DNA of 64,000 bases from Ulota crispa. Its lineage: Eukaryota; Streptophyta; Bryopsida; Orthotrichales; Orthotrichaceae. Positions 8,273 through 62,846 of the stretch are shown one piece after another. A program made the translations under genes and the position numbers. The notes beneath the pieces are model-generated. The model was not told the origin of the DNA, did no database searches, and was given only the letters and a program-made list of their open reading frames with translations. The DNA lies in NCBI GenBank assembly GCA_963920765.1, contig OY987242.1, positions 16,144,002-16,208,001 of the forward strand, in the 5' to 3' direction. Positions within the stretch are counted from its first letter, which is position 1. Each line of letters starts with the position of its first letter.

Positions 8273-8518
8273 TTAACCCTTCAGTCGTTTATGGATTGAC
8301 CCTTAAAAAACCGCTCTACGTATTACATATAACTGGCATTTGCTACCAACAAAAAGTTTTAATTTGGGAGCTTGACTAGCTCACTAGAATCGCATTGATT
8401 TATATTCTAACTTCTTTGTTGATCTCAAATGTAGTAAAGGTTTGGATGCATTCCAAATACAAGAAAATACTAAATATTGTATTGGCCGCAAAGGGCTCCT
8501 CAGTCCTTTAAGGGTTAA
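8273..8518. mobile_element. TTAA element, short type 1, copy 1
   Basis: 246 bp including the flanking TTAA on both sides. Ends are TTAACCCTTCAG and CCTTTAAGGGTTAA. Its interior (AATTTGGGAGCTTGACTAGC) matches the copy at 38869-39087 almost throughout, so the two are one family. Confidence 0.75.
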
Positions 8519-8571
8519 GCTTTCAGTGCTTTATGGATTACCTAATACCCTAACTTTTGTGGGATGGGTGT

Positions 8572-8777
8572 AGAGCAGCTCCAGTGGGAACTTGGCAACT
8601 CTGTTTGTAAAATCTTGATGTTTGTTGGAGTGGGAAATCTCGGTTGCACCTGCCATAGTCAAAGAATCTACATAAAGGGCTTCGCAACTTAATTCTTAGG
8701 TAGAGATTAACTCCATTCAATTCTAATTTCATCTATTTGGTGCAGGTAGTGGGTAATGGTTCTATTGGAGATGCTCT
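8572..8777. mobile_element. MITE family S (AGAGCATCTCC ends), copy 1
   Basis: About 206 bp between AGAGCAGCTCCAGTGGGAA and CTATTGGAGATGCTCT, an imperfect inverted pair. The same end motif bounds elements at 39088-40381 and 45251-45562. Confidence 0.6.
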
Positions 8778-9177
8778 TAGAACATTTTTAACGCACTTGG
8801 CAAACCAACCTAATGTATTGAAATATAACTTAAAGGACTATAGGACGTGGAAGTACGATTGCTAAAATTTCATCTAAAAGATAAACAAGATAAATTTTAA
8901 AAAGTGAATTTGGACACTCTATGATCAAGATACACCTCATTAGAAGCCAACATTTTTATATGACCATTCAAATTAAGCCTAAAAAATAGAAAATTCAATA
9001 CATTTGGTGGTTAAAGTTTTCCATTATATGCTAGATTTGAATAGCTTTCTAATTTGTTTATGGGATAGTTTAAGGATTCTCTTAGAAATGATTTCTTTGA
9101 ATTTTTGGGTATTGCTTTGTCCTTTAGTTAATTTGGCATCAATTTGTCAATCTTTCTTGGATTGAATCCCAAACCTT

Positions 9178-9493
9178 CTATATTGAATACTGCATTTAGG
9201 TTACCCCACACTAATTTACTGACATTTTACAAAAACTGACATTTTACAAAAAAACAAAAAAACTTATTCTATAGTAATTTCATCAACAACTACTACAATA
9301 ATCTTAATTAAAGGGCTTAGCAACAACAACAATGTTGCATAAAGACAAACTAGCGGCGTCCAAGTTGTAAACCATGTGAAATCTTAGTATCAAGAGAGTT
9401 ACATGTGCTTCCAAATGACCAAGTGATAAATCATGAGGTAAAATTTGAAGGCAAGGTAACCTAATTGTTAAGACAACCTAGATACAATATTTG
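9178..9493. mobile_element. Fold-back MITE family P, copy 1
   Basis: Begins TATTGAATACTGCATTTAGG and ends with the diverged complement CCTAGATACAATATT. The interior includes TTAGCAACAACAACAA. Related copies lie near 17411, 18455 and 26058. Confidence 0.6.
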
Positions 9494-9803
9494 GTGTAGG
9501 TATTAATCTTCACTTCTCTAGGAATTTATTTCTTAATCATTTAAGAACGTGCCTCTTTACTTGAATCATCATTCATTCTAAAGATTTTCAAGGTATTTTA
9601 TGGGCACTTCACACCACATTCCCAGTATGACATCATGATGCATTGTATTTTGCTTACATGGTAGTATTTTTTGGAAGTTTTAAAGCCAAAGACGGTGGGG
9701 TTCACTTCAGATTTGAATAATCCAATTTGCTAAACCTAAATTTTAACCACTAATATTTTTGCATAAAGTATCCAATGTCTTTCTTTGTTACTCCCTTTTG
9801 TCT

Positions 9804-10183
9804 TTAACCCTTAAACGCTGGGCGGGTAACCGCAGCCTGCCCCATTGTAGCTTCTACAATGTTTTCTACAGTGTTTATGAGTGTGTCCACTTGTAATATT
9901 GTTCCTAAAAGTTGTAAAAGTCAATAGTGCATGGTGATCTCATGAAAATTGCACTAAGGGCAACTTGGGACCTAACACTGTGATTCTAAATTTTCTCACA
10001 ATTTGAGTTACCAAAAAACATGAGTGCATTATGTGAGATTGTTTTTTACCTTCCATGTTGGACCATGTGTTTCTGATCACTTTTGAAAAAAAATCAAATG
10101 AAAAATAGCATTTTTCTTGCCATACAAAAGATTTTTAATTAGCTGAAGGACAAAAAACGTCCTCCTTGGCGTTTAGGGGTTAA
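9804..10183. mobile_element. TTAA element, type 2 (ACGCTGGGC), copy 1
   Basis: 380 bp. Left end TTAACCCTTAAACGCTGGGC; right end GGCGTTTAGGGGTTAA. The subterminal part (GGGTAACCGCAGCCTGCCCC) is GC-rich against an AT-rich interior. Copies of the same family lie at 15144-15519, 16554-16929 (inverted) and 27216-28798 (interrupted). Confidence 0.85.
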
Positions 10184-10530
10184 TCATCCAACAAAGTTAG
10201 GATCTCACATTAAAGTTGGAATTGCAAAGATGGGATGTGCCGGGACGTAGTGTGAATCATTTCTTGTAAGCAACTTGGAGAAATGCTTAAATGGTTTTTG
10301 AAAAGAATGTTGTAGATTGTGTATTTTGAATTATATTTTGCTACAGCGACTCACAAAACAGAGTTAGTGTTTGGATATTTTTCATTAAATAAGCAATATT
10401 ATCACATGGAGTGAACAATCCAACAGGTAAAAAATTGTTTTAGACAGTAGAAGCTTTATTGATTATTTACATGGAAATAAAAACAAAATACACATAATAT
10501 ATGGAAGCACTAAATTCTGAAATTAGACCC
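10184..10530. other. Unassigned spacer
   Basis: AT-rich, no open frame or repeat recognised. It separates a TTAA element from the Tc1-like element. Confidence 0.4.
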
Positions 10531-13539: not shown

Positions 13540-13541
13540 TA

Positions 13542-15143: not shown

Positions 15144-15519
15144 TTAACCCTTAAACGTCGAGCTGGTCCCCACGACCAGCCTGCTACAATGACTTCTATA
15201 GTATTTTTTAAGGATTTCAATACTATGATTGGTGTAACAAGTGCCCAACTTTTATATTTTTTCCAAAAGCTGCAAAAGTGAACAATACAAGTTGACCTCA
15301 CAAAAATTGTAGGAAGGGCAATATGAACTTTCTCACAATTTGGATTGTCTAAAAGTATGAATGTATTTGATGAAGTTGTTTTTTACCTTCCATGATGAAG
15401 CATGTGTTTATGATAACTTCTGGGAAAAAATCAAATGAAAATCTTGTTTATTCTGTCATACAAAATGTTTTTTCAGAGGCAAAGGATGAAAAACATCCTT
15501 ATGAACGTTTAGGGGTTAA
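15144..15519. mobile_element. TTAA element, type 2, copy 2
   Basis: 376 bp. Left end TTAACCCTTAAACGTCGAGC; right end GAACGTTTAGGGGTTAA. Same family and nearly the same length as 9804-10183. Confidence 0.85.
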
Positions 15520-16553: not shown

Positions 16554-16929
16554 TTAACCCCTAAATGTCGAGGAGGACAAAAAATTGTCCTTCTGCTCTG
16601 AAAAAAGATTTTGTGATTCAGAAAAAAGTCATTTTTCTTTTTTTTTTTTTTTTTTTTCCAGAAGTGACCATAAACAAGTGGTTCATCATAGAAGACAAAA
16701 AATTACCTCTTGAGATGCATTTTTTTTTTTTTGTAACCCAAATTGTGATAAGATTTAGAAACATGGTGTTAGCTCCCAAGCTGCCCTTCTTGCAATTTTC
16801 ATGAGGGCATCATGCACTGTTGGCTTTTTCAACTTTTTGAAGTAATACTATTGGTACCCATGTGCAAAACACTATAGACTGCTATAGACAAGACAAACCA
16901 CGGTGATTCATCTGTCTTTTAAGGGTTAA
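16554..16929. mobile_element. TTAA element, type 2, copy 3 (inverted)
   Basis: 376 bp from TTAACCCCTAAATGTCGAGG to GTCTTTTAAGGGTTAA, with the interior in the opposite orientation to copies 1 and 2. A run of about 20 T lies near 16640. Confidence 0.8.
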
Positions 16930-18715: not shown

Positions 18716-18782
18716 AGGCCCTGTAAATTTTATAAATTAAAAATATATAAATATATAAAAATAAAATTATATATATATACAT

Positions 18783-19479
18783 AGAATTACTACAGTGACA
18801 CCCTAAATTGCTAACATGACACCCCCTTTGAGCATGGAAATGTGATTTTTAATGCTAATTTTGCTGATTTTTTTTTATTTGGATCAAAAGATTTGTTTCA
18901 TCTTTATCATTCTAAGGCTATACTAAAAAAGAGGTGTGCTTAAATTTCAAATTAAAAATATAAGACTTTTGAGTTACATAAAGCAAAAGCATATCAATAA
19001 ATAGTATTGGTGCAATAATATTTAATTTTTTTTGTATTTATCATGTTTTCTTTCAAAGAGGTGGTAATGTTGTGTTTGAATGAATGATGGACCACTTAAT
19101 AAATAAAAAATAGCACTAAATTATTAAATTTCATGATAATTTAGTGCTATTTTTGATTTATTAAGTGGTCCATCATTCATTCAATCACAACATAACCACC
19201 TCCTTGAAAGAAAACATGACAAATACAAATTTTTGTTGAAATATTGTTGCACCAATACTATTTTTTGATGTATTTTTGCTTCAAGTAACTCAAAAGTCCT
19301 ATATTTTTAGTTTCAAATTTAAGCACACCTTCTTTTTTTTAGTATAGCCTTAGAATGATAAAGGTGAAACAAATCTTTTGATCCAATTAAAAAAATCAGC
19401 AAAACTAATATTAAAAATCACATGTTCTTGCTAAAAGGGGGTGTCTTGTAAGCAATTTAGGGTGTCGCTATAGCAACTC
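18783..19479. mobile_element. Large fold-back element, 0.7 kb
   Basis: Two arms of about 340 bp are near-perfect inverted repeats around a centre close to 19128 (TTTAGTGCTATTTTT on both sides). Terminal sequence is AGTGACACCCTAAATTGCT on the left and AGCAATTTAGGGTGTCGCT on the right. No coding content. A (CT)n run starts at the right end. Confidence 0.85.
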
Positions 19480-19973
19480 TCTCTCTCTCTCTAGACACAC
19501 ATTTAACTTTTCAATAAGTCAATACGTGCTTATGCGTAAAATGTTGAGAAATTAGTGTGAGGCAACTTAAAAGCAATATTAAGTGTAGAAAAAATGGTGA
19601 TGCATTCACACACTCAATGAAGGTCTCCAACCACAAGAAGAGTGAAAGCAAGAAGAGGGAGATGAAAAAGAGACATGCATCAATAAAAACGTCACATGCA
19701 AAAGCTTCTTCATGCCTATTCTTCTCCTTTGGAGGTGAAGAAAAATCCTTCTCAATTTTCAAGAAAATGGGATCTCTATAAATCAAGGAAATAGTGCCAT
19801 ATCCCTATTCTTTAAAGTTTGAGAATAAGGGCGAAAAAGGTGTGACTGCCCCTAATGTTTTACAGAAACATGGAGATTTCATCCATTGAAAATAGTGGAA
19901 TTCTCTACACTCTCATAATATTACCATCACTTTACAAACTAAGTTTTGCAATTTGCCACTCAAGGCGTCCTTC
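19480..19973. other. Unassigned region
   Basis: Overlapping frames on both strands (19557-19781 and 19511-19786) cannot both be genes and neither has a known motif. The part near 19500-19600 resembles family P. Confidence 0.35.
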
Positions 19974-20477: not shown

Positions 20478-20481
<4 letters not shown>

Positions 20482-20946: not shown

Positions 20947-21896
20947 TTAACCCCTAAAGGACCAACTGTCCCCTCAAGGGACAAATGGATTTCAAGCATG
21001 TCCCTACAACTAATCTACTTATTTGAAACTTTTATTGAAGGTGGGGAATTCAAAGATCTACGTGGACATCTAAATTTTTCTTCAGTCCAACAATTATTGA
21101 AGAAGTTATGCATGAATTTTTGAAAAAGTGGGAGGGCGGGTAGCAAGAAAAAAAATCAAAATTGCAAATTTTAAAAATAAAAATCTGAAATTGGTTCTTT
21201 GGAATTATACAAATGTGGAAATCTTTGAATCATTCAATTTTAATTGATGAGATGAAAGTTATAAGAAGTTTTAGTTTGCGGGTAGGTAAGGGACTCCCAA
21301 ACCTCCATTCTTTTTGCCCCTTGTAAACTTTGTTACTTTACTTTTTTGAGCTCTTTGTGAATTTGTTTTTTGATTTGTTTTTTTTCTTCAAATTGTAATA
21401 GACTAAGATTCCTTGGATTTTACCATTTGGATCAAAGTAATTCAGATTTCCCAATTTTACATAAATCCTCCAATTTTGCCTAGTGTATGTGCAAACTTCA
21501 TGGCCTTACGGCATTGCAAGATTTTACAAAGTATGATTCACACCTCCAATTCATTTGAAAATTCTCCCACACATACCTAACTTAGTCTTCTACATGGGAA
21601 AAATAAACCTCAACTTTGCATAGAGCAACTTTTTTGATATAGAAGCCTTCAAAGGCTTTTGAAATTTTTGGACAATAGGGAAAAAAACTATTTTTTTCAC
21701 TTTGGATGTCAATATCTCACTCCTCTACTTCTAGAATGAGCTGAAATTTTTCCCACAAGTACCTCCCATAGTTTAGGACAAGATCCTACAATTGAATTTT
21801 CAAAAAAAAAAAATTCCTACCTTTCTACTCATTTCCCTAAAAGTGAAAATTTTCAGTGATTTTTGAAGAAAAAAGAACTTGATCCTTTAGAGTTAA
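20947..21896. mobile_element. TTAA element, type C (0.95 kb), copy 1
   Basis: 950 bp including both TTAA. Left end TTAACCCCTAAAGGACCA; right end ATCCTTTAGAGTTAA. It interrupts a family J-type repeat: the flanks TGGCG and ACGCCAGATTC rejoin as TGGCG-TTTAA-ACGCCTGATTC in the uninterrupted copy at about 25845-25865. The interior (GATGAGATGAAAGTTATAAG) is shared with the other type C copies. No transposase frame. Confidence 0.88.
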
Positions 21897-22019
21897 ACGC
21901 CAGATTCGAAGTATCTAGATTTGCTATCAACGAATGCACATTTGTCCCTCAAAAAATCGTCCTCACCTCAGAAGGCATGTAGTGATTAACTGTAGAGCTA
22001 CTGTATCAAAAAAAAAAAC

Positions 22020-23004: not shown

Positions 23005-23936
23005 TTAATCCCTAAAGAACTATTGTCCCTTCAAGGGACAAGTGGGAGTTTGGGCATGTACCTTTGGATAAGCTACTTTGTATGATTTTTTGAAACTTTT
23101 ATTGAAGGTGGAGAATTCAAAGATCTACGTGGGCATCTAATTTTTTCCTCATTCTGACAATTATTGAAGAAGTTACGCAAGAATTTCTGAAAAGTTGGGG
23201 AGGACTGCCCGCCTGGGCAGCCCAAAAACTTCTTTAATTTTCTTTTTAACTAAAATTTGAAATTGGTTCTGTAGATTTTTTTACAAGTGAGAAGCTTTGA
23301 ATCATTCAATTTCAATCAATGACATCAAAGTTATGAGGAGTTTTTGTTTACGGGTAGTTATGGATTCTCTACTCTAAAATAAACTTTGAAGTCCTTTATT
23401 TTATTCAATTTTCAATATTTTGGAAAAAAAATTGAACCAAAGGAAGTAGATTGTTTATCTTAACATTTTGACCATTAGGATTTTGCAATTTTCATTTTAA
23501 TAATTAAATTCTTAGCAATTTAGTGATTTAACTCATTCTCTACTTCTTTTTACTTACTAATTTTTCCCATGTGTTGTGTAGTTCCAATTGATTTGAAAAT
23601 TCTCCCACACATAGCTAATTTGATCTCCTACATAGGAAAAATAAAGCACAAAGTTGGGTAGAGCAATTATTTTCATGTAAGAATGGTCAAAGGCTTCTGA
23701 AATTTTGGGGCAGCATGAAAAAATACTTTTCTTTTCACTTTAGATGTAAATATCTCACTCATGTCCATCTAGAATGACCTGATTTTTTTCCACAAGTACC
23801 TAATCCAATTTAAGGCAAGATCCCATGGTTGGATTTCTCAAATTTTTTTTAAAAAAAATACCTTCTTACTAACCCCCAAAAGTGGCAATTTTGAGTGATT
23901 TTCACTGAAAAAATGGCTCAGTCCTTCAAGGGTTAA
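23005..23936. mobile_element. TTAA element, type C, copy 2
   Basis: 932 bp. Left end TTAATCCCTAAAGAACTATTG; right end AGTCCTTCAAGGGTTAA. Flanks ACTCC and CATGG rejoin as ACTCC-TAAA-CATGG in family B copy 1 (1361-1374), so one TTAA was gained on insertion. Confidence 0.88.
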
Positions 23937-26479: not shown

Positions 26480-27219
26480 TTAACCCCTCAAGGTCCAAGT
26501 AGCGTTTTTTGGGCTGTGTAGTGACTTTGGGCAGGCCACTACAAATGGGTTTTGAATTCTTTTTTAATTTTGTTTTCACACATGAAGTATCTAAGGAGTA
26601 GCTTGAAGGCCCAACAATTTTCATAACTTTGGACTATATGGTTCAAAAGTTATTGCATGATTTGTTGTTTTCTTAGCTCGTCAGGGCACCCCGGGCAGCT
26701 CAAAAACTTCTTTAAAAATTATATTCCAAGTTTTTTTTAAATTTTAAATTGGTTTTTTAGATTTACATGTAGGTGGGAAGCTTTGAATCATTCAATTTCC
26801 ATTAATGAGATGAAAGTTATGAGAAGTTTTAGTTTGCGGGTAGGTAGACTCCACACCTACCCGCAAACTAAAACTTCTCATAACTTTCATCTCATTAATG
26901 GAAATTGAATGATTCAAAGCTTCCCACCTATATGTAGATCTAAAGAACCAATTTAAAATTAATAAAAATTTGAAATGCAATTTTTAAAGAATTTTTTGAA
27001 CTGCCCCGGCTGCCCTAATGAGCAAAGAAAACAACAAATCATGCAATAACTTTTGAACCATGTAGTCCAAAGTTATGAAAATTGTTGGGCCTTAAAGCTA
27101 CTCCTTGGATACTTCATGTGTGAAAATTTAAAAAAAAACAAATTCAAAGCCCGTTTGTAATGGCCTGCCCAAAATCACTACACAGCTCAAAAATCGCTGC
27201 TTGGGTGTTGAGGGATTAA
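26480..27219. mobile_element. TTAA element, type C fold-back dimer
   Basis: 740 bp between TTAACCCCTCAAGGTCC and GTGTTGAGGGATTAA. The two halves are near-perfect inverted copies of the left half of a type C element, meeting at about 26852 (GCGGGTAGGTAG / CACACCTACCCGC). Each arm is about 365 bp. A transcript would form one long double-stranded hairpin. Confidence 0.85.
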
Positions 27220-27566
27220 ACGTAGGGCTGGTTATTGTAACTAGCCCGTCACAGTTTTCTCTATAGTAGCGGTAAGCACACACCCTATAATATTGTTTCC
27301 TAAAGTTCCAAAAGTCAATTGTGCATGACTGCATGCAGTGCATGGTGCCCTATTAAAAATTGCAAGAAGGGCAGTTTGGGACCTAATTCCATGTCTCTGT
27401 ATCTTTTCACAATTTGGGTTACTTAAAAATATGAGTGCATCTAATGAGATATTTTTTTGCATTCCATGATGGATCATGTGTTTATGATCACTTCTGAAAA
27501 CAAATTGAATGAAAAACAAATTTTTTTTCTTCTGTAAATTAGAATCTTTTTTCAGAGCATGCAACG

Positions 27567-28757
27567 CCATATTCAATAACTTGGGAAAAACAAAGGTACC
27601 ATTTTGTACTCCACCTCAATCCAAAATACTCACCTCAAACCAGATTCAAAAGTATCAAGTTCAGTCTAAGCCACTAAGATTTTTTCCCTCCCAAATTCCT
27701 CCTCTTAGGTGAGGACATGTGTACCAAAAAAATAGCTGGAGCTTGGTTTGGGGCATGCTTTGGGATAATCACCCCAAACCTTTAAAAGTCCCAAAATGAC
27801 CATTTTGGCCCAATTTAGCCCCTAAAGGACCAAGCCATTTTTTTCTGCAAAAAACACAAAAAACTGCCGCTTTTGGGAAGCAAGTACAATGGTAAGAAAA
27901 AAAGTTTTTTACAAGAATTTAACTATAACATCTTACATTAAACTACAAAAGGTACAAGTGGTAAAAAAATCAGCTCAATCTACACCAAAATTAGTGAGAT
28001 ATTTACATTTGAACTGCAAAAAAAAATTCTTTTTTGCTGCTGCCCAGAAATTTCAGAAGGCTTTGACCACTCTTAGATTAAAAAAATTTCTGTACACAAA
28101 GTTGAGGTTTATTTTTCCCATGTAGGAGATCAAGTTAGGTATGTGTGGGAGAATTTTCAAATCAATTGGAACTATACAACACATGGGAAAAAATAGTAAG
28201 TAAAAAGAAGTAGAGAATGAGTCAAAACACTAAATTGTTAAGAACTTAATTATTAAAATGAAAAATGCAATCTCAATTGTCATAATGTTGTGATAAACAA
28301 TCTATATCCTTTGGTTTTGATTTTTTTCCAAAATATTGAAAATCGAGTAAAAGAAAGGACTTCAACGTTTATTTTAGAGTAGAGAATCTAAAACTGCCCG
28401 CAAACAAAAACTCCTTGTAACTTTCATTTCATCTATCAAAATTGAATGTTTCAAAGCTCCCCACGTCTATATAAGTCTAAAGAACCTATTTCAGATTTTT
28501 ATTTGAATAAAATGAAAATTTTAAAGAAGTTTTTGGCTACCCAAGGAGCAGCATTTTCCAGATTTTCATGCATAACTTCTTCAATAAATGTTAAAATGAA
28601 GAAAAAGTTACATTCCCCACATAGATTTTTGAATCCTCGCCTTTAATGAAAGTTTCAAAAAATCATGCAAATTAGTTTAGCCATAGGTACATGCCCGAAA
28701 TCCCAATTGTCCCCCGAACGGACAATGGTCCTTTAGGGTTAATGAATATGACAATGT
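27567..28757. mobile_element. Family J repeat, nested and itself interrupted
   Basis: Left end CGCCATATTCAATAACTTGGG; right end TTAATGAATATGACAATGTG. The type C element sits in the TTAA-like site of its right end. Confidence 0.7.
27815..28742. mobile_element. TTAA element, type C, copy 3 (inverted)
   Basis: 928 bp, left end TTAGCCCCTAAAGGACCAAGC, right end GGTCCTTTAGGGTTAA. The left target copy has one change (TTAG). It is the innermost of three nested elements. Confidence 0.82.
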
Positions 28758-28948
28758 GCGGACGTTTTTTGTCTGCCTGGACATTTAGGGGTTAAACTGA
28801 TTACACGGTCGTAGGGTGCATCTTTTGAGGGTCTTTAGCTATTCAGCTGCTGACAGCACTGCGCGAAAGCACTTTGTTGAAGATATGGGTTTGTGACAAA
28901 TGCCAATGACGCTGACCCTTGAAGTTCAATCTCCAATTTACTAAAGTG

Positions 28949-35021: not shown

Positions 35022-35651
35022 TTGACCCCTAAATGCCTGAGACCTTTTTGGAGCTTCTAGGAATTTGTTCTGAATTGAACAAAAATCTAACATTTTAATA
35101 TATTGTATAGGTCTTTTTAAAATGGTAATCACACAAATTCAAACTAGATATGTTAGAGATCACATAGGAAAAGAACTCAATAATATCACTTATGGATAGG
35201 AAGATTATAATGTTTGATCATGAGGGTGTTAAAAGTGCAAAATTGACTTAAAGTCTTTCAATCCTCTTTTCACATGTTGAATTTAAAAATTTGGTCACTA
35301 AAAAAACATGATTAAAAGACATAACATACATAACTCCAATCACATTATAGCTTTTCAAAATCTCTTCTACAGTTTCTTTAAATGAATTTTTAGTGTAATT
35401 TTTTCTCCAAGTAATTGAGGCTCATTTCTAAGAGCTCTCAACACTATGGAAAGTCAAGACCCTTGCACAAAATGTTGAATAGAAAAATCATAATCAATTA
35501 TTTTTCAAAATCAAGATTTTGATGCTAAAATTGGACTTCAAAAAGAATAGTTCATAGATATAAACTACTAAAAATGGCAATTTTGTTAAATTTAGTGAAC
35601 TTCAAAGTATTGTCAACACTAAATTTGGTGCCTTCTGCATTTAGGGGTTAA
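35022..35651. mobile_element. TTAA element, type 3
   Basis: About 630 bp from TTGACCCCTAAATGCC to TGCATTTAGGGGTTAA. The left TTAA is changed to TTGA. The interior is unlike types C and 2. Confidence 0.6.
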
Positions 35652-35881: not shown

Positions 35882-36916
35882 AAAACACCATACTCATTAA
35901 ATTGGGAATTTCTGATTCCCAAACTGAACTTCACCTTAACCCTTAAAGGACCAAACCCCCTTTTTTAGAAACATAGCAATTTTGGGCAGGTACATATGAT
36001 TGGAGCTTTTTGTATTCTAGACTAAAATTTTTATAGAATGTGGGGACGGGGTTTATCTTTCATATGCACTAAACTTCATGGCATTTGGAATTATGAGTAA
36101 AAAGTTATGGTCCAATATGTTGCTTTTTATGTTCCTCGGGCAGCTTGGGCAGATTTCTAAAATTTACTTTTTCAAAAAACAAATTAAATGGATTTAGGAG
36201 ATTCATGTGAATGTAAGAAGCTTTGAATCATTTCGTTTGGATCAACGAGATGAAAGATATGAGGATTTTTTGTTTACGGGCAATTATGGATTCTCTACTC
36301 CAAAATAAACTTTGAAGTCCTTTCTTTTACTCAATTTTCAGCATTTTGGAAAAAGAACAAAACCAAAGGATGAAGACTGCTTATGAAAACATTATGACCA
36401 TTGGGATTGGCAATTTCATTTCCATAATTAAATTCTTAACAATTTAATGTTTTGAATCATTCTTTACTTCTTTTTACTTACTAATTTTTTTCCATATGTT
36501 ATACAACTCCAAATGATTTGAAACTTTTTTGACATGTACTTTACTTAGGTGGAATAAGGAATTTAGAGAAGCACCACCCACATGGCCTTTTTTCCTTAGA
36601 AATTTCACCTTCCAAAGGGTAGTTGCCTGGTTTTTCACAAGACATTTTTGAATATTCAAACCATTCTAACTTCCAATCCACGTAGTGGAAAACTCTGAAT
36701 TTTTTTCTACATCTTCTAAAACCATTCTTCTACAAGATCCTACGGTCACATCTACATGAAAATCTTTTTGTTTTTAAAGTTGGTTGATGCTCTAAAAATA
36801 GCAGTTTTGAACAGTTTTGGGTGAAAACTTTGCTCCAAACATGGTTAGGGGATCAACTAAAATCTTCAAAAGTCCCAAAATGTTCAAAAATTCCCAATTT
36901 AATGAATATGATGTTA
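35882..36916. mobile_element. Family J repeat split by a type C TTAA element
   Basis: Left end AAACACCATACTCATTAAATT; right end AATTTAATGAATATGATG. The insertion is at CACC-TTAA, which reads CACC-TTAA-ACCC in the uninterrupted copy near 25811. Confidence 0.7.
35936..36856. mobile_element. TTAA element, type C, copy 4
   Basis: Left end TTAACCCTTAAAGGACCA is clear. Interior matches type C (TTTGAATCATTTCGTTTGGA, then AATTTCCTTAGTTAG-like parts are diverged). The right end, near ATGGTTAGGGGATCAA, is eroded. Confidence 0.7.
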
Positions 36917-37144: not shown

Positions 37145-38061
37145 TTAACCCCTAAAGGACTATTTGTCCATTCAACAAGCAAATGGGATTTTGGGCAGGT
37201 ACCTACGACCTCAATTTGGTCCTGATTTTTTGAAACTTTTTTTGAAGATAGGAAAACACATTAGCTTTTGGGGGATTTAATTTTTATTCCAATTGGTGCC
37301 AGGGAGCAAAAGCTAAGCCCAAATAAGCACAAATTTGGGGACTCCGGGTAGCAAAATAAAATCTCATAAAAACTTGAATTTCTTTTTCTCATAGGCTATA
37401 TGTTTGTCTACATCTAAAGCTTTGATTTATTCCATTTGGACTAGTTATGAGAAAGTTATGGACTATCTTGTTTTCTGGGCAATTCAAGCATCTTCTTGAA
37501 AAAATAACTTATAACTTTATTTTTGAATGTAAGTATAACATTTTTTCAAAAAAAGCTGTTTGAGAGTGTGAAGTCTGCTTTCTAGAACAATCTCACCATT
37601 GGGATTATTGCATTTCAATTCCATTGCAGGGTTATTAGCAATTTAAGTTTTTGTTCAATCTCATACCATCTTCTACCAAATATTATTTTTAAAGGATGAA
37701 ATTAATTTTTTTTTATTGGTTTTTTTCCCAAGATTACCAACTTAACCTCCCACCATGCAAAAATAGAATTCCAAACTCTATGGTGCAAAAAATTTAAGTT
37801 AAAAAAGTTCAAAGTCAAATAATCTAATTAGGCAAGGTGCAAAAAGAAGCTATTTTTTACAATTTAAACTCAAATATCTTCCAATCTATGTCGTCATAGT
37901 TCTTGAGTTTTGTAAGACACACTTCTATACTAGTCTAGTACAAGATCATATGGTCAAATATGCAAAAAGATTAATTTTCAAACTTTTTTACTCTTTGCCA
38001 TAGAGGTAGCAGTTTTGAGTGTCTTTTGACAAAATAAAGGCCATGGTCCTTTAGGGGTTAT
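37145..38061. mobile_element. TTAA element, type C, copy 5
   Basis: 917 bp, TTAACCCCTAAAGGACTATTTG to ATGGTCCTTTAGGGGTTAT. The right target copy has one change (TTAT). The interior is a diverged type C. Confidence 0.82.
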
Positions 38062-38547: not shown

Positions 38548-38868
38548 TTCAATTTATAATGAATATTGAACATCACTTGTTTTATAAGAAAAAAAAAAAA
38601 CTCAAATAAATTCTCTAAAATATTTTTGTTTAAATATTTTCAATTTTCTTTCAACCTACTAGGTGGCATTATGAGGTCCCCTTACATGTTAAAGTCCAAG
38701 TTTTCCAATCTTGCAAAGCTGAAATGCACAAAAGAAAGTAGATGGCTGATTGGAGGAGAGGCTAGATGACTAAGTAGAGGGGAAGTTGGACCCCTGTAGC
38801 AATGAAAAGCCGCTTGAAGGTCAAAAGCCCCATAGAAATGCACATGTTCGTTAACAGATTAACCCTTA

Positions 38869-39087
38869 AACATCCATAGGGTATAATATACTCTGACAAA
38901 TTGTCATTTGCTACCAATAAGAAATTTTAATTTGGGATCTCAAGTAGCTCACTAGAATTGCATTGATATATTCTCTACCTTCTTTGTTGGTCTCAAATGT
39001 AGTAGAGGTGTGGATCCATTCCAAATACAAGAAAAATACCCCGTATTGTATTGGTTGCAGTGGCATGCTAGGAAGTTTAGGGGTTAA
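38869..39087. mobile_element. TTAA element, short type 1, copy 2
   Basis: 219 bp, TTAACCCTTAAACATCC to AGTTTAGGGGTTAA. The interior matches 8273-8518. Confidence 0.85.
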
Positions 39088-44519: not shown

Positions 44520-44885
44520 TTAACCCCTGAGCGCCCGGAGTTGTTTTAGGGTTTAGGAGAAAATGGAGGGTATAATGGCCACAAGAGCTTGGAAAATTAC
44601 ATTCAGAAAAAGTGAATGTAGGATTTGAAAAAGGATTACCATCTTTGCTAATGGGGACTAGCCACGACTGTTTTCACCTTACAAATCAAAAGAAAAAGTG
44701 AGATCAAGTTGTGATCCCCAACAACAGGATCCCACTGGGGTTCTTAAGGTTTAATTGATTTAGAGCCATGGTTGAAGAATGCACAAGAATAGCTTTCTGA
44801 ACATAATGGGATGTATTTCATCTGTTTCAGACAGCTTGAGAATGTTCATACTCCACCTAGTGAACCTTGGTACTAATGGGGTTAA
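44520..44885. mobile_element. TTAA element, type 4
   Basis: 366 bp, TTAACCCCTGAGCGCC to ACTAATGGGGTTAA. The interior is unlike the other types. Directly followed by a Harbinger-like MITE. Confidence 0.7.
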
Positions 44886-47485: not shown

Positions 47486-48289
47486 TGAACCCCTAAGCGT
47501 CTTGCTAAGAAAATTTAGCATACCTTCAATATAGAACCTTCAACACACTCCCTTAATTTTTAAAAGTTGAACAAGTATTCACACAATCCAAACTGGTCAT
47601 TCTATACCCAACTATAAATTAAAAGTTTAAGGTTAGTCTAATTTCAAATCAAAATAAATTTGCAAAGTCCCCACCCTTGAGAATCTCATATTTGTTAATT
47701 TGGGTAGCAGTTCACAATATGATTTTGGACTTTGATGTGATTTTTTCCCATAAAAAAACTACCTAATGGTTGATCCCATGAGACCGTGTCTACCTATACT
47801 TGATGGAAAAAAGAAAAAAAGAAAAAAAAAGAAAAAAAGAAGACCCCCCAAATGGGAAAAAACTCCAAAACTTATGGTCATTCAAAGTAAGTGGATCTAG
47901 CTACCTTACTACTTTAGAGCTACAAAAACCTTGCCCAATCAAGAGAGAAAAAAGTGACACATCACCAACCTTCTCCTCTATACATGGGAGTGTGGGCTTC
48001 CAACACATCCCGTCCAAAATTCCTCCATCCACTCAATGCAATGTACAATGCCTATATACACTTCCACTAATAGTTTTAATATTAAAAATAATAAACTCAA
48101 GTGTTTGGGTGCAAAATCTAGAGGCTTTAAGGAACAAAACGCCGATCCAAAAGTTTTGTTGGACTTTTATCTCCATTTGAACTTGAGTGGCAGACCAAAA
48201 CTTGAACATGCAATGCCTTTTTTGTCTACTTTTACACCTCCAAGGACCCCATTTGACCATGTTGGGCTCTTTGGTCCTTTAGGGGTTAA
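47486..48289. mobile_element. TTAA element, type 5
   Basis: About 800 bp from GAACCCCTAAGCGTC (left TTAA lost) to TTGGTCCTTTAGGGGTTAA. The right end is exactly that of type C, the left differs. The + strand frame at 47800-48180 lies inside and is A-rich; no known motif. Confidence 0.55.
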
Positions 48290-51320: not shown

Positions 51321-52094
51321 AAATGTTTTGAAGTCTTAAGAAATAAAAGAAGTTTTCAAAAAAAAAAGAATCTTTTAGAAGTTTGGGTGTACATTGACTG
51401 GTTTTATTTTCTTTACTTTTCACAATTTGGTTAGATTTAAAATTAGCAACCTTTAAAGTCAAGTAAAAATATGACCACAATAACAAAAAAAACAACAGTT
51501 TTCTGTTGATTTGGACACTTTTGGACACAATTTCACTATTTCAACAAAATTTTATATAAAAAGTACAACATTTTCTTGTTTTAAATACCAAAATTTCTTT
51601 ACAAACAAATACAAAAGATGCTCCTCAATTCTTTGAAAAAATCATATATATCCCTCAAGGATTAAAAGTACCAAAAATATCTTTCCTTTTTGTATAAATA
51701 TCAACAATGCATCTAATATATTGGGAAAATATTAAAATGCTCCTCAACTATTTTAAATTATTTATATCTTTGTGTTATATGATAACCAAGTGTATAGTTT
51801 AATGCAAATTCTTACAAAAAACCAAAGGTGATTTTTACATTTCAAATAACACAAGGATATATTTAAAATTTCAAAATAGAAGAGCTTTTTTATTATTTTT
51901 CCAAAATAATAGGAGTATAATTGATATCCCTACAAAAAATAAGGAATATTTTTTATGTTTCAAATATTTTCAGCGTAAACTTGATATTTTGAAAGACTTA
52001 AAGGGTATTTTTAGTATTTTCCTTCTATTACTAACCAAATAAATTTTTAAAAAAAAAACAATCTTATAAAATATTTTTATAAACTTTAAAATAT

Positions 52095-52506
52095 GGGAAT
52101 TGATATGTGTACCACACCCTTCCAATTACTATACCACACCATGGGGTAAATTTTAGATTTCTACCATCAGAAAGCTAGATTTGAAAATTTTGAATTCAGA
52201 TTTGGACTTAGAGACCATGATTTAGTCTAGAACCATAAAAAAAGTTGCAGTTCAACAACACCCAATGAAAAAGTTTAATTAGGGAAACATGTGTTACTTT
52301 TACTTTTGTTTGTAAAAAAAGATAAGCTTTTTCATTGGGTGTTGTTGAATTGCAACTTTTTTTATGGTCCTAGACAATATCATGGTCTCTAAGTCCAAAT
52401 TTGAATTCAAAATTTTCAAACTCTAATTTTTGATGGTAGAAATCTAAAATCTACCCCGAGGGTGTGGTACAGTAGTTCAAAGGGTGTGGTTCACATATTA
52501 ATGTCC
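52095..52506. mobile_element. Fold-back MITE family E, copy 3, inside the CACTA element
   Basis: 412 bp starting GGGAATTGATATGTGTACC, with a decayed right end. The flanks TAAAATAT and TTAAAAAAT resemble a mutated 8-9 bp duplication. It must have inserted after the CACTA sequence was in place. Confidence 0.85.
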
Positions 52507-53029
52507 TTAAAAAATATCCAAAACTATTCAAAAGTCTATAGAATTTTGATTTTATAATTGCAAGGTTTAATTCCGTAACTTTTCACAATTTCATGTTATT
52601 TAAAGCTATCAAACTATGGAGGCTATTTTAACAAATTATGGTTCTTTTTACAAAAAAACTAGCACTAAATAATAATTATTAATGAATCCAACCTTCGCCT
52701 ACAGCAATCCTTTTGAGATTTGTGAATTCCAATAAAATTTTATAAACAAAATCAAAAGGATGGAAATAAACCATTTTTAAAAAATTGCTAAATATCTTCT
52801 CTGATTTTAGCTCACAATTTTTGACAAAAAGATTGAAATCCAAAAAAAATTGTTAGAAGTGAAAGTTAAATACATTTACCAATCTTTTTTAGTTATAAGT
52901 TTTTTGAAAAAATTTTCTTTAATGGGCCGAAATAGCCTCCAAAGTCTACTAGCTTATTAAAAACATGAACATTTAATATACAAATACAATCATGATTCTA
53001 TTGTGCTCATATGTGAGTGCATGTGTGCT

Positions 53030-54837: not shown

Positions 54838-55053
54838 TTAACCCTTGAAGGGCCCTTGGGCTTTGGAGATATAGTACCAAATACAGTTGCAACCACTATT
54901 CAGAAGTTTGAATTAGCTGGAAATTAAATGTTACAACCATACAGATGATGGGTGCATAAAAAAATTTGGAAAGCCCTTAGAGCAACTCAAATATGTCTGT
55001 ATACAAGACCATACATACGGCCGCAAAGGGCTTTTGGGACGTTCTCGGGTTAA
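54838..55053. mobile_element. TTAA element, short type 6
   Basis: 216 bp, TTAACCCTTGAAGGGCCC to GGGACGTTCTCGGGTTAA. Perfect TTAA at both flanks; the interior is not shared with other types except GCCGCAAAGGGCT, also near the end of the 8273-8518 element. Confidence 0.78.
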
Positions 55054-56482
55054 AGGCAACAAAATCATTGTCCGTGAATGCCTAGTTGGAATAATTCCGT
55101 GGTCCCTTTTGGATCTGATTTATAACATTAAATTTGTTGGGGTTCATTCTTTTGGATAGTTTGAATGTTGAAATGAATTTTAATTTGAGGTTACATCTCT
55201 TGTTACATTGAAAGATCCTTCATTTGTTTCAACCGAATAGAATAAAAGAAAAAGACTTGAGGTTTGGTTAAATTTTAATTCCTAAAGGTAAGATCACAAC
55301 ACACAAAAATAGGATGGCCTTTGTCAAACTTAATTTTGGTTTTTGAAAACCTGTTTTTTTTGTTTACTTAAGTTACAAAACATAAAATAACACATCTTGT
55401 TATTATTGCATTTTGGAAATTTTGGAAACCATAAAAATCAACGACTTATGGTATTTGCATGCTTCAGGAATTCAAATCCATATTACACAATAGTACGTGT
55501 TTTTAATTTCATCTTTCATTATTTGTAATATGCGATTTACTGATTTTTTATATTAGCCTAGCCTTAATTATTTTTTACACTTTTAAATTCTTACAAATAC
55601 ATGTTTGCATGTTTGAAGAAAGAAATTGAGACAAATTTAAATAAATCCGAACACATATTTTGAAAAAAATTAAGGTACATAGAGAGGATGCTTTTTACAC
55701 TTTGAATTATTACATAATGATACAAACACTAAGTTTTAGCTTGATAGAAGAAAAATTAATTGAAGGCCATCATTAAGGCTGTAAAAAGTAAAAATAGATC
55801 TTCAACAAACTGGTGACTCTTGTTCATTGTTACTTACTTGCAACATGATTCCATATGAATCAAATTCACATTTTGAATATTAGCTAAATGTAACTAGGTC
55901 CTATACATATGAATACTTGACTTTTTATCCATCTACGTATTGTAAGTTTCTTGCGTTCTTTTTTTAACATTTTTGTTGTATAAGTCTTTAAAAATATTAT
56001 TTGAAAACTTTTGACACTCCAGAAAGTACAGGTATGATTGACCTTAAAAACTCCCTTTCCAAGTTCAAATAAAGGTCTTTCAAAATGACCTCAGAAAGTA
56101 AGTATCACATGAATTTTTAGAAGCTCTATCATTTCTAGGTATTTTATAACTCAATAGAACAAAATAACAACTCTTATAAAAATATGTTAACTCTCAATCC
56201 ACTATTAACTCTAAAAGAAAATTCAAATTCAAATTGCTGGTTTCAAGTTGTATTTATAAACATTGATGACGGCAACAATACATTTATTCAAATGAAAATG
56301 ATCCATGAGTCGAAATCATGAAATACTGACTATTCTATAGACATCATCCAGTCAGGCATCTACTTGTACAATTCATTGCTCATCTTTTAATTTTTGGACA
56401 TTTGGGCATACCTTGATATATGAGGTATTAAGAAAAAAATTAGATAAAAATATATTTAAAAACATCTGGTCAATTTAAATAA
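55054..56482. other. Unassigned 1.4-kb AT-rich region
   Basis: Nothing recognised. Confidence 0.4.
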
Positions 56483-56887
56483 GGGAATTGATATGTGCAA
56501 ACCGAGGGTTTGATATATACACACCTAGGTGATAAATTTTAGTTTTATACAATCAACAAGTGGAATTTGGAAAGTTTGAATTTAGATTTGGATTTAGAGA
56601 CCTTGCTTTTGTTTAGAACCATAAAAGAGGTTACAATTGAACAATGTCTAGTGGAAAAGCTTAGTGTTTTTACAAACAAGGGGAAAAGTAATAATTTTGT
56701 CCCTATCTAAGTTTTTCCACCAAATATTGTCCAATTGTAACCTCATTTGTAATTCTAAATAAAATTAAGGTCTCTAAATCCAAATCTAAATACAAAATTT
56801 TCAAATTCCACTTGTTGATGGTGAAAAACTAAAATTTACCCCCTAATATGCATATATCAAACCCTAGGTGTGCACATATCAATTCCC
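56483..56887. mobile_element. Fold-back MITE family E, copy 4
   Basis: 405 bp, GGGAATTGATATGTGCAAACC to CACATATCAATTCCC. It is more diverged, but the central CCTTGCTTTTGTTTAGAACC and its complement are kept. Confidence 0.85.
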
Positions 56888-57836
56888 TTTAGTAACATCT
56901 TGTTATAGAAATGATCGCAACTACGTATTTAAACTAAAGCAATAAAATTTCCTTACGTGGGTAAAGAACATATTCTTGTATGTAATTAAAATGGGATTAA
57001 AATCAAAGTAAATTGAAAAACACTAAAACTGAGTTTTATCCTGATATTTGGGTGTGCAAGCATGGAGTCAAATCCATAAGGGTTTGACTCATGGTGTTGG
57101 AGTGTCTTTGACGATAAATGTAGCTAACACAAGCATCGCATCATAGGCAAGGTTCGAAGAAAATTGGCATTTTAGTGTATTGACTTGCAAACAAATTGGT
57201 TGAAACTGAAATCACCATATAAAAAACCGGTCAAAATTTTCAACATAATACATTCCAATATGAATACACAAAATTCATAAAATATAACTGGTGCATGTCC
57301 ATAAAACTAGTTGAAAATGAAGAATGCTGAATTTTAGCCGATGAAGCTAAAATTTATCCTCAAAAGCTGATCACAAGTGGAAGAGTCCAACAATTAAAAC
57401 ATGTAATATTTGCACTTGATCAACAATGTAATGCCCAATGAGCAGAGGTATCAAAAAAAACAAAACAAAAAACAATAGAAAGTCAATTAAACGAAATGTA
57501 AAGAATTCGGTTGAAATTTGAATGTATTTGATAAATTCTAGCAACATGGAATCATCTTCAGCAAACTACCAATGGAGTGCCCATGTAGATGGTGTTGTCA
57601 TTTGCAAAATCCGCTACGCTTCGCACCATTGGATGTTGCTTGATCAAAGAATCCTATACAATGTAGGGAAAATCATGGTTCACACTAGTATTTTCAAATT
57701 TGTCATAGTTGCAGATGAGATTTTTGATAATATATCCTTACAGTATAGATATATAGACAATAATCAATGTATGCATTAAAGAAGTCCATTGAAAACGAGA
57801 GATTTGGGAGTTTTACAAGGAGGCTCAAAATCTCCA
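56888..57836. other. Unassigned AT-rich region
   Basis: The 85-codon frame at 57522-57779 has no known motif and is not called. Confidence 0.35.
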
Positions 57837-58702: not shown

Positions 58703-58750
58703 ATATTTTTGGACATTTTTAACCTTTTGGGCAGGTACTACCTACATATA

Positions 58751-59082
58751 GGGAAAATTTCATGAATACCCCTGAAGTTTGCGATATTTGTATAGATATC
58801 CCTGTTTTTTCAGAGATTGCTCAAATACCTTTGGACCATAATTTTTAGGCATTTATTTGTTGTGCTTGTACTTCCTTCATGACCAATGTTGAAGAAGGGA
58901 ACGTAATGAAACAAAAAAGAAGCAATACGTGCACAAAGGAAGAAGGAAAGTGGCATGCACTACAAAACAAATGCCTCAAAAGTTTGGTCCAAGGGTAAGG
59001 CTTATTTGTGCAATTTCTGAAAAAGCACAGGTATCTATGCAAATATTGCAAACTTTAGAAGTATCCATGAAATTTTCCTTGA
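58751..59082. mobile_element. MITE family A, copy 5
   Basis: About 330 bp with family A arms (GGGAAAATTTCATGAATACC at the left; GTATCCATGAAATTTTCC at the right). No clean 9-bp duplication, but longer direct repeats lie outside. Confidence 0.78.
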
Positions 59083-59150
59083 TTTTTATCTTTTGGGCAG
59101 GTCCTCCCTATGTGAAATGTTTGGCAAGAATTTCTAAAAGTTTGACTACA

Positions 59151-60687
59151 AATGTGTTTTACTACTTGGTAAATTATAGCAATATGGATTGTAGTTCAAT
59201 AGGCATGTTTCAAAAAGAGTTTATTTTTGAGATTATGGCAATTGAGTGAGTCACAATAGATTGATCCCATTGGTTTGAGAATTTCACACATACTCTCAAC
59301 ATGCATATGTAACAAAATCTCAAGTATGCCAAGTACACAAGCACAAGATCTGGACTTAGAAGTTGTTGAAATTAGGCTTTTAGTTTCTAAGCAATGATTG
59401 AGTAAGTTAACCAAAATGGTTGCAGCCAATAAAAAGAGACTTTCACATGATCAGAGGGTTTACTTGATTGTATAGATGACTATGTAGGATTTTGATATGC
59501 TTGGTTTAATTTTATAAGTGGTTTCTAGATGCAATTTTCTTCACTTCATGGTACACTATTGGATTGATTATCTCAGTTTAATAGTCTATAATTTGCCAGT
59601 TGTTGTAATTTCACTCTTGTTATTTGGCATTAACTGCTATTATGAAATTCTAAAGTATAAAAAGAATTCACTCATTACTCTCATTTACAAGATGAATGGG
59701 CTTTTGTCACTCTTATTGGTACTCTATTGCATTGACTTTCTAAGGCTTTATGTGTGCCAATTTGTCATTGTAATGCAATTTCCTTTTTTGATCTAGTTGT
59801 TAATTTTGTTTTCACAATCACAATCTGATCAATGAGGTTGACTTTTTGCACCTAGCTTTGGTGCAACAAGCCATTTTCCAAATCATCTGAATATGTGAAG
59901 GTTTTTTTAATTGGATTTTAAGCCTTGTTTACAAGATGGGATTTGCTAGAGTTTTATGAACAATTCTTTCAAAATGTGTTATTCAAGGTGCAACAGTTAA
60001 AAGTAATTTATATGCAATGCATTTGTTCAAAAGTAGAATTTTAAAATTCATGATTGCTTAAAGATTTTTTTGATAAAATGCCAACAAGTTTCTTATTTAT
60101 ATTTTTAATTTAGTTTCTACTTCTACAAAGTTAGTCAAAGACACACTATTGTTTTGAAGATTTTTTAGAGCATTGAACATTTTTTATAAAGAGTTTCAAG
60201 ATGCAAGTAGGTTTAGGCTTGCCTAGCAACTTTCATGTCAAGACTTAATTTGCATATCAAGATCTAATAACAATGGCATAGGATTAAAGCCTCTCTACCT
60301 AAAGAGTAAAAACACGTCCTCTTTTCCTAGTGTATTAGGAGAGACCTAAAGGTTGCACCAATACAATCAACAACATCTTTCAGTCATTGTATAGGTTCAT
60401 CCCACTTTTTGATTTGAGGACCTTGTCACCCTCACTATATCTACCTAGAAGATCAATCAAGACTCAAATCATTTTGAATGTCAAAGGAGATTTCATCAAA
60501 ACTATAACTACTCATGGAAATATATAGGGACATGTAATCTTGGAAGAGGATTTGAAAGGCCGGCTATACTTACAAAAAATGGCACCTTGGTTTGAGCAAC
60601 TCTAGCAAAGGAGGGCCTTTTTATCCATTTTGGTGTGTGTCATACCTTTATATAAGTTGCATTGATGATGCTATAAGGGTGTCCGCT
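59151..60687. other. Unassigned 1.5-kb region
   Basis: The 92-codon frame at 59518-59796 is hydrophobic with no known motif. No element ends were found. Confidence 0.35.
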
Positions 60688-61000
60688 ATGCACCCAATAT
60701 ACAAGCCCAATATGCTAAATTTGATTTATTAATAAACATTCAACAGTTATACAACAAAAATGCAGTTGCTATCCTTTTCGGTGAATTTTGAGTTTTGAGG
60801 TTTGATTTTTAAAAACCTCATAGTTCTTTTTGGAAGTTAGCAAACATTTGATGGAGTGGATCTAAATCAACTAGTACCCAAAACCATGTTTTTTAAGTTC
60901 TCACAAAAAAACTTTCATTGCCCCTCAAAATTTATTTTTTCCCATATAATTATTCATGTTTATTAATTAATTGGATTTAACATATTGGGCTTGTGCACCA
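60688..61000. mobile_element. MITE with TGCAC...CAAGCCCAATATG ends
   Basis: About 313 bp. CAAGCCCAATATGCTAAATTT at the left pairs with AAATCCAATTAATTAA-side sequence AACATATTGGGCTTGTGCAC at the right; ATTAATAAACAT also pairs with ATGTTTATTAAT. Confidence 0.7.
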
Positions 61001-61563
61001 GGTGCTCAAAGACCCTGAACTATTAAGGTCAAGATCTAGGAAGAACCAACGACTAGTTCAAAGCTAGCCAATTGAAGTGAAAAAACAGTTTGTAATTTAT
61101 ATACATCAGCTTAAAAATCAGTTTTAAATCTTTACGAAAAAAAATTACAGTATGAAATAGAGAAAGTAACCAAAATAACATATTGATAATCTGGTTCGGT
61201 ACTGGAACTGAAGGAAATCAACCCAAAAAACTCAAATAATTCCAGGACCCTGAGGTCATGGGATTGACCGTAGGTATTGACTATGGTCAATTAGTGTAAG
61301 ATCGCCAAAAGCTTTGATTTATTTTGCTCAGTGCATTTAATTTGGAGCTAGACCACAATCAGTATTGGATTGAGCAAAGAGGTGGCAGACTGTGGGGAAA
61401 TGGACAAGCAAGACCTTTTAATGAGCATTGTTTGAGTTAATCCTCAAATAATATTATAGGTTCTTTTTATAAGAAGCTTATATAGAGGTTGGGCATGCAC
61501 TCATTACCAATCACAATAAAGAAACATTAAAATAAAAGAATTAACTGAAGAATCGGGCAAGAA

Positions 61564-62846
61564 TTAGTCTTTAAAGTACTAAGCTCAAATTTTCATCAAA
61601 ACTGCTTCAAAATTGCCAATTCTAATACAAGTACCAAATTTTAGATTTTTTTTTTTGACAAATATAGCCGTAAGATCTTGTACCAAACTAGTATTAAAAG
61701 ATGTGAAAAAAAATTCAGGAGTTTTCACTATGTAGATTATTAGATACTTGAGTTTGAATTGACAAAAAGTCATTTTTTGTCTATGCAAAAATCCGGGTAG
61801 CTGCACTTCACAAGGTCATATTTGTATGAAAAAAACTCCAAAATGGTTGTAATTTTTTGGATTTTTTCTCCAAAGCAAGCTGGGTACACACTTGAATTTT
61901 GAAAATCATTTGGAATTGTAAATCACATAGAAAAACAATAACAAGTAAAAAGAAGTAAAGAATAATTCAAACCACTAAATTGTTAAGAACTTAATTATGA
62001 AAATGAAAAATTTCAATCCCAATGGTTATAATAGGGGTAGTCAGGGAACCCCAGGGATTTTCTCCAAGGTCAGGGAATGTAGCCGTGGTGCTGCAAGAGC
62101 GTTTCAAGGGGAGGCTATTCACTGACCTCAGGGAAAATTTTCTCTCCACCCCCCAAGCCAGAGAAGTCCTATCGAGGAAGTTTTCACCTTGGGCCCACTC
62201 AATTTCACCGCATGATGTACAATTTTTCACTGCTTCTTTGGTGTTCTTGGGCTTTGGTTTTTACCCCTCTTCATTCTCCATTCTCTGTTCTCCACCATCA
62301 CAAAAGAGGTGTCACACCTTCTCCACAGAAAATTGATGCCATTGGCTCCTATTTTCACTCAACAATTCTCCATCTCTAGAGAATTTCCAGTCTTCGAGAA
62401 CATGTGACTACCACTACCTTTGGGTTTTGTTTTTTTCTAAAATACTAAAAATTGAGTAAATTAATGGACTTCAAAGTTTATTTTAGAGTAGAGAATCTGC
62501 CTGTAAACAAAATCTCCTCATAAATTTCATCTTGTAGATCAAAATGGAATGATTCAAAGCTTCCCAAGTATACATAAATCTACAGAACTGATTTCAAAAA
62601 AAAAATTCAAAAAATTAAATTTTTAAAGAAGTTTTTGACTGCCCGCCAAGCAAAGAAAATTACATATCATGCAATAACTTTTGAACCATGAAGTCAAAAA
62701 TTATTAAAATTGTTGAATTGTAAAGCTACTCCTTGGACACATCATGTGTGAAAATTTCAAAGAAAAAGAATGAAAACCCCATTAATAGTGAATTGCCCAA
62801 AATTGCTATATTACCAAAAAAGGGTGTTTAGTGCTTTAGGAGTTAA
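61564..62846. mobile_element. TTAA element, type C, copy 6 (inverted), split by a MITE
   Basis: Left end TTAGTCTTTAAAGTACT (eroded), right end GTGCTTTAGGAGTTAA. Interior is type C in reverse (GGAATGATTCAAAGCTTCCC, GTTAAGAACTTAATTA). Removing the family D insertion leaves about 900 bp. Confidence 0.7.
62034..62414. mobile_element. MITE family D, copy 2
   Basis: GGGGTAGTCAGGGAACC at the left and GTGACTACC at the right, inserted in the type C element where other copies read continuously (compare 28290-28320). It is GC-rich against its host. The frame 62022-62336 lies in it and is not supported. Confidence 0.72.

Follow-up and report, generated by a model that had tools for sequence, protein, structure and literature searches.

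The TTAA-bounded intervals scattered through a 64,000-nucleotide stretch of the Ulota crispa genome (hereafter the window, bases 16,144,002-16,208,001 of the 41.4-Mb contig C1 in an assembly of 274.8 Mb and 157 contigs) are almost certainly non-autonomous miniature piggyBac transposons in a plant nuclear genome, i.e., miniature inverted-repeat transposable elements (MITEs). The same genome also has relatives of 5-7 kb, in which similar ends surround a piggyBac DDD transposase. Membership in the piggyBac superfamily was tested on sequence features, and it holds: the target is TTAA with a 4-bp duplication, the terminal inverted repeats (TIRs) begin with CC[C/T], as the definition excerpted from PMC2872659 has it for piggyBac, a DDE_Tnp_1_7-type DDD transposase lies between the ends (usable pairs at 11 of 20 loci), and a C-terminal cysteine-rich domain (CRD) is recognizable by its Cys pattern. 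A left-end palindrome also occurs at the position of the CRD dimer of Trichoplusia ni (T. ni) piggyBac, a trait that is not universal among piggyBac elements. The duplication seen at empty sites and the DDD transposases enclosed by such ends bear out the piggyBac identity that an earlier, sequence-only reading had assigned to TTAACCCYT...ARGGGTTAA intervals.

The intervals themselves are real. Exact tips number 21 in the window (11 of TTAACCC[CT]T and 10 of A[AG]GGGTTAA) vs. 0-5 for both motifs summed in 20 first-order Markov shuffles of it, and they extend genome-wide: TTAACCCYT occurs 70,961 times (35,466 + 35,495) against 17,959 (8,931 + 9,028) for the reversed control, and the stricter 17-base tip TTAACCCYTWAMNGNCC has 21,484 exact occurrences (10,729 + 10,755) against 3 (1 + 2) for the reversed pattern. 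These element numbers are pattern counts and first-look candidates rather than a full annotation, and a candidate does not equal a confirmed copy. Pairing of tips together with BLAST gives about 16 elements covering 16% of the window bases, drawable as 16 intervals of 216-1283 bp; the right end is poor in two of them (20947 and 35936), and in the other 14 the left and right ends agree at 10-17 of 20 bases. The TTAACCC[CT]T tip is common to all MITE types, the bases beyond it vary widely, and some window tips have no good partner. The elements are short, carry no transposase open reading frame, exist in many copies and have sharp TIR ends, as expected of MITEs.

Seventeen starts had been named by the sequence-only reading, and ten of them are exact TTAACCCYT tips. 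The start given as 38869 is 10 bp off and belongs at 38859, where the tip is exact, while 23005, 27815, 35022, 47486 and 61564 turned out to be decayed tips (TTAATCCCT, TTAGCCCCT, TTGACCCCT, TGAACCCCT and TTAGTCTTT, respectively). The position 27216 was tried as an exact tip of a separate element and rejected: it is a TTAA with no CCC tip, namely the right TTAA of the 26480 element, although a family B-like remnant follows. At 8273 the motif is exact, but the tip proper of this family probably lies 23 bp further in, at 8296 (TTGACCC), a placement made by eye from a family C copy adjoining locus L059 (L numbers denote loci fetched from the genome). The estimate of about seven interior types stands, since BLAST grouping yields three families and four unmatched types. 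Family A (~930 bp) comprises 20947, 23005 and 27815, with 35936, 61564, 37145 and the fold-back element 26480 partly related; family B (~376 bp) comprises 9804, 15144 and 16554; family C (~225 bp) comprises 8296 and 38859; and 35022, 44520, 47486 and 54838 are single types with no BLAST match elsewhere in the window. The 16 elements are as follows.

8296..8518, + strand: E1, family C piggyBac MITE; left end TTGACCCTTAAAAAACCGCTCTACG, similar by eye to the family C end adjoining L059; right end AAGGGTTAA; 85% identical to E12 over 156 bp.
9804..10183, - strand: E2, family B-related MITE, 380 bp; both tips exact; 77-79% to E3, E4 and 27337-27525 over parts.
15144..15519, - strand: E3, family B-related MITE, 376 bp; both tips exact, each followed by a palindrome.
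16554..16929, + strand: E4, family B MITE, 376 bp; query for the copy search.
20947..21897, + strand: E5, family A MITE, ~951 bp; left tip exact; right tip decayed, 15/20, out of TTAA register.
23005..23936, + strand: E6, family A MITE, 932 bp; query for the copy search.
26480..27219, no strand assigned: E7, fold-back element; 278-bp arms, 86% complementary; parts resemble family A interiors.
27815..28742, - strand: E8, family A MITE, 928 bp; 82.5% to E6 over 807 bp; sits between family B remnant pieces.
35022..35651, - strand: E9, MITE tied by end matching to the L012/L021 autonomous lineage, 630 bp.
35936..36850, no strand assigned: E10, family A-related element; left tip exact; right end approximate; interior 84% to E6 over 313 bp.
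37145..38061, + strand: E11, family A-related MITE, 917 bp; tips agree at 17/20; right tip ATAACCCCT.
38859..39087, + strand: E12, family C MITE, 229 bp; both tips exact.
44520..44885, + strand: E13, candidate MITE, 366 bp; left tip exact; right tip TTAACCCCAT; ends agree at 10/20 only.
47486..48289, + strand: E14, MITE, 804 bp; left tip decayed TGAACCCCT; ends agree at 12/20.
54838..55053, + strand: E15, candidate MITE, 216 bp; right tip TTAACCCGA; ends agree at 14/20.
61564..62846, - strand: E16, family A-related element, 1283 bp; left tip decayed; ends agree at 13/20; interior pieces 75-85% to family A.

The remnant pieces of family B round E8 lie at 27336-27559 and 28760-28795, and the 255 bp at 27560-27814, between the remnant and E8, belong to neither and are possibly another insertion. 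The flanks of E1 (8273-8545) show by eye an apparent imperfect direct repeat of ~25 bp (TTCAGT..TTTATGGATT), and bases 47488-47577 inside E14 are 85% identical to DNA adjoining a family B copy in L043.

Searching the genome with the family B element 16554 (376 bp) gave 2,515 first-look candidates, and of the best 40 scored, 38 span bases 1-376, one 2-376 and one 1-369; the family A element 23005 (932 bp) gave 9,341, of which the best 40 scored all span at least bases 15-925 and are, the query itself aside, 86-91% identical to it. The edges are marked by TTAA on both sides in all 12 family B copies examined (11 besides the one in the window) and in six of eight family A copies, and in both families the flanking sequences differ by eye. 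We then have the empty sites. The joined flanks of 32 insertions (24 + 8) were sought in the genome, with the best 40 candidates scored per search, and unoccupied copies were found for three of them, all lying in repeats: the family B copy L037, the family A copy L061 and a 35022-like copy in L009. Rows spanning the join numbered 18, 8 and 33, from which 9, 8 and 6 sites were fetched, and all 23 cross the join directly at a single 4-bp target, as the proposed check on TTAA duplication had asked; the target reads TTAA in 8/9, 4/8 and 6/6, i.e., in 18 of 23. Filled sites are thus flanked by TTAA on either side, and empty sites have a single copy of it. In L039, L045 and L059 the copy occupies the inner TTAA of a TTAACCCTTAA-type tip, and joining its flanks restores that tip, in L039 and L045 with one base changed.

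The other proposed check was for a DDE_Tnp_1_7 transposase between the same ends. The Pfam profile (PF13843) has at least 120 matches in the genome, all above the curated cut-off (best 116 of 528 candidates scored), and none in 14 control genomes. Ten of the 120 are stop-free and the other 110 contain stops, and some transposases match the profile as two separate pieces. When one copy was compared with PDB sequences by phmmer, it matched piggyBac (6x67, 4.1e-20) and piggyBat (9c0f, 5.8e-17), and no other PDB sequence at E up to 1. At 20 loci fetched at 9 kb, the three columns taken as the catalytic D residues are kept in 19/20, 15/19 and 17/18, the first two located via alignment to 6x67 and the third via alignment to piggyBat. 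A Cys motif (CxxC..CxxC..C/S..C..H) follows the DDE domain in 12 of the 20, two of these with Ser replacing one Cys, and lies 60-70 aa past the DDE match in 11 of the 12; the control positions had it in 0/20 upstream and 0/20 on the opposite strand. Pairwise identity among the 20 sampled transposases has a median of 36% (28-81%) and they form about eleven groups, in a tree with strong support on 6 of 17 inner branches and weak deepest forks. Several divergent transposase lineages coexist in this genome.

At 11 of the 20 loci the transposase lies inside a usable inverted pair of TTAAC-type tips, selected by their CCC and 5.0-7.0 kb apart, and in ten of these 11 the first 16 bases of the two ends agree at 12-16 positions. 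Three tips were dropped as autonomous ends, their stretches resembling family A MITEs: the right tip of L020 at 7815 (6850 was taken instead), the left tip of L021 at 165 and the right tip of L011 at 6937. Just inside the left ends there is a palindrome. With positions counted from the first T of TTAA, the strongest axis over 12 left ends is 28.0 (z 5.6), which corresponds to bp 25 after TTAA; this test preceded any boundary correction. The left end of L018 was afterwards shifted by 8 bp (to 626) with the palindrome in view and L020 was excluded, which leaves 11 left ends, seven of which have at least five of seven pairs at bp 25 vs. 0 of 11 right ends. When 99 distinct tips from the fetched DNA are pooled, the above ends and many MITE copies among them, axis 28 is again at the top (z 3.7; next 18.5, z 3.1), and 23 of the 99 have at least five of seven pairs there, vs. 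none at axis 40, 1 at axis 60 and 4 at axis 80; at 2,613 other TTAA sites the same axis is unremarkable (63 vs. 58-65).

Bases 13-50 of 22 MITE ends were matched against 28 autonomous ends with 500 shuffles each; the set included left ends of L015, L017 and L020 that were chosen with the palindrome in view and stand outside the 11 left ends above. The right end of 35022 best matches the left end of L012 (0/500 shuffles as good), its left end reaches p 0.002, and the related copy in L009 matches the right end of L021 and the left end of L012 (0/500 shuffles as good). An earlier matching with 11 autonomous elements had only the 35022 right end below 0.005, and there the window 35022 left end was nearer to the L012 left end than to a right end. 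On these end matches the 35022-type MITE is firmly tied to the L012/L021 lineage. For family B, the left end of the window copy (16554) matches the left end of L017 best (0/500 shuffles as good), the right ends of 16554 and L037 match none of the 28 autonomous ends, and a tentative link to the L017 lineage may be drawn, which depends on a left end chosen with the palindrome in view. The single types 44520 and 54838 have no partner among the 28, and the right end of 47486 has p 0.018 among the 22 ends tested.

Several observations weigh against the picture drawn so far. Among family A copies, L058 has no right TTAA, and in L060 the right TTAA is shortened and abuts another tip; five of the 23 empty sites differ from TTAA by one base; and 29 of the 32 joined sites have no unoccupied copy among the best 40 candidates per search, which says little. 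Eight of the 20 transposase loci have no convincing end pair (nine if L020 is excluded), the pair scan also yields AT-rich pairs that score similarly, and the Pfam profile zf-Tnp_2 (PF13842) has zero matches, although that search gave no hit in the control genomes either. Four of the 11 left ends are without a clear bp 25 palindrome, and the right ends peak, less strongly, at axes 98.0 (z 4.0) and 17.5 (z 3.1). As for partners, the left end of the family B copy L037 best matches L009 (p 0.002), in disagreement with 16554, and families A and C have no partner among the 28 autonomous ends.

What could be said instead concerns, in the first place, who moves whom. The sequence-only reading suggested that one transposase mobilises many unrelated passengers. 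That a single piggyBac enzyme moves all MITE types, which would share only their outer tip, we regard as improbable: the tip is indeed common to every type, none of the sampled autonomous subterminal regions matches family A or C, and two family B copies point to different partners, but the 20 sampled transposases are as divergent as described, the 35022-type matches the ends of one lineage, and the bases beyond the tip vary widely. A single shared transposase is not supported; equally, one partner per family is not established, and families A and C may be mobilised in trans. Regarding the superfamily, Kolobok elements also duplicate TTAA on insertion, but their termini are 5'-RR...YY-3' (PMC9587614, excerpt) and those here are CCC...GGG, the enclosed transposase is DDE_Tnp_1_7, and even for the unpartnered MITE families the tips speak against them, so that we give this origin very little credence. 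Still less is to be said for PIF/Harbinger (Tourist-like) MITEs, common in plants, whose TTA or TAA is contained in TTAA: their duplication is 3 bp (PMC10004981, excerpt), while here it is the 4-bp TTAA, found at both ends of filled sites and once in empty ones, and the enclosed transposases are piggyBac. Chance inverted motifs in AT-rich DNA would suit so short a motif and the tips without a good partner, but are next to impossible given shuffle and reversed-pattern counts far below those observed and full-length copies with sharp edges.

Reading the intervals as piggyBac MITEs, homology with T. ni piggyBac and piggyBat suggests how they would move. The transposase would bind the palindrome just inside the left tip via a dimer of its C-terminal zinc domain, pair the left end with the right end, cleave at the tips through hairpins and then insert the element into TTAA; the MITEs, which retain both ends, would be mobilised in trans. 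With the outer tip common to all sampled lineages, specificity probably lies in the next 30 bp.

Tips may themselves be targets. Eight of 19 fetched copies are inserted at a TTAA that belongs to the outer or inner tip of another element, or six of 17 (L036, L038, L039, L043, L045 and L059) when L058 and L060 are set aside for their uncertain edges. For comparison, tips hold 29 of the 487 TTAA sites of the window (6.0%) and, in the 9-kb loci, which were picked round transposases and not at random, 50 of 642 (7.8%), giving binomial values of 0.0003-0.0013. Back-to-back tips on one TTAA (ARGGGTTAACCCYT) number 2,204 genome-wide vs. 4 for the reversed control, a count that may include composite units copied together. 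Preferential self-nesting is no more than a lead. A broader scenario is that about ten deep piggyBac lineages have radiated in a land plant together with many MITE families, that their shared outer tip can carry two TTAA targets (TTAACCCTTAA), and that the elements prefer to nest in each other's tips, forming chains of abutting ends; we offer it tentatively, with more doubt than confidence. If it were true, the left-end palindrome at bp 25 would mark an end layout that moth and plant elements have both retained.

piggyBac is best known from insects and bats. T. ni piggyBac (PDB 6x67/6x68) shares with the present elements the TTAA target, the CCC tip, the DDD transposase, the C-terminal Cys-rich domain and a left-end palindrome centred on bp 25, where, in an excerpt of PMC7351741, the CRD dimer sits on bp 17-33 and the minor groove is narrowed at about bp 25. 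It differs in having a palindrome on both ends, asymmetrically placed, whereas none of our 11 right ends has one at bp 25, and in its 594-aa single-ORF transposase, compared with the two-piece matches and the 110 of 120 with stops found here. piggyBat from Myotis lucifugus (PDB 9c0f) likewise has an imperfect left-end palindrome with no right-end counterpart, its palindromes being confined to the left end (PMC11707139, excerpt), but there are three of them along with GCGGGA repeats; the comparison here covers palindromes near the tips. CMITEs of Acropora corals (PMC2872659, excerpt) are also piggyBac MITEs with TTAA duplication, CCC tips and a MITE inserted by another, in an animal host. On the plant side, the repeat annotation of the C-fern (PMC6890710, excerpt) has piggyBac in a land plant, though as 1,230 copies and 122 kb in total, compared with tens of thousands of tips in 275 Mb and at least 120 transposase matches here.

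The remark that piggyBac is little described in land plants agrees with the literature found, and no title on native plant piggyBac elements is among the open-access matches listed; plant piggyBac is nevertheless already on record, in the fern table, in a survey that lists it in all groups including land plants, and in two reviews whose excerpts name piggyBac MITEs in angiosperms and include the superfamily among plant elements. This is a known kind of element whose abundance and diversity are unusual for a plant, and we make no claim of a first sighting. piggyBac is among the most used genome-engineering transposons, the natural-history literature that we found is almost wholly on animals, and a plant genome with some ten lineages and tens of thousands of tips is a natural comparison set bearing on end-transposase covariation, the position of the bp 25 palindrome and a possible attraction of insertions to tips. 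A further implication is that annotation of plant repeats may overlook a major MITE class.

The bulk of the amplification looks old because most transposase matches have stops and MITE copies within families A and B differ from each other by 6-12%. C-to-T changes in these two families amount to 0.185-0.233 per CG or CHG site vs. 0.037-0.044 at CHH, a pattern that we read as decay of DNA methylated at CG and CHG, such as a plant would be expected to show; it could also be the source of the frequent TAG and TGA stops among the transposases. The plant origin of the DNA, already supposed by the sequence-only reading, is also supported by contig C157 (112.5 kb), on which rbcL is followed by tRNA-Arg(CCG) and a 317-aa frame, putatively accD, by rbcL fragments on five chromosomes and by a plant basic helix-loop-helix (bHLH) ACT-like domain in an open frame of the window (31788-32012; PF22754, 1.7e-9). 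The rbcL sequence appears bryophyte-like. In L030 (contig C97), a bacterial-looking frame is joined to a partial plastid rbcL and the following frame, probably a chimera or assembly contamination.

Away from the TTAACCC intervals, the window has long nested inverted repeats at 18770-19493, 52092-52509 and 56481-56889 that are probably other fold-back elements. A short tandem repeat at 2170-2460 is open in several frames (GCPRSNW units), and WD40 repeats in three open frames at 4722-5942 are probably exons of one gene.

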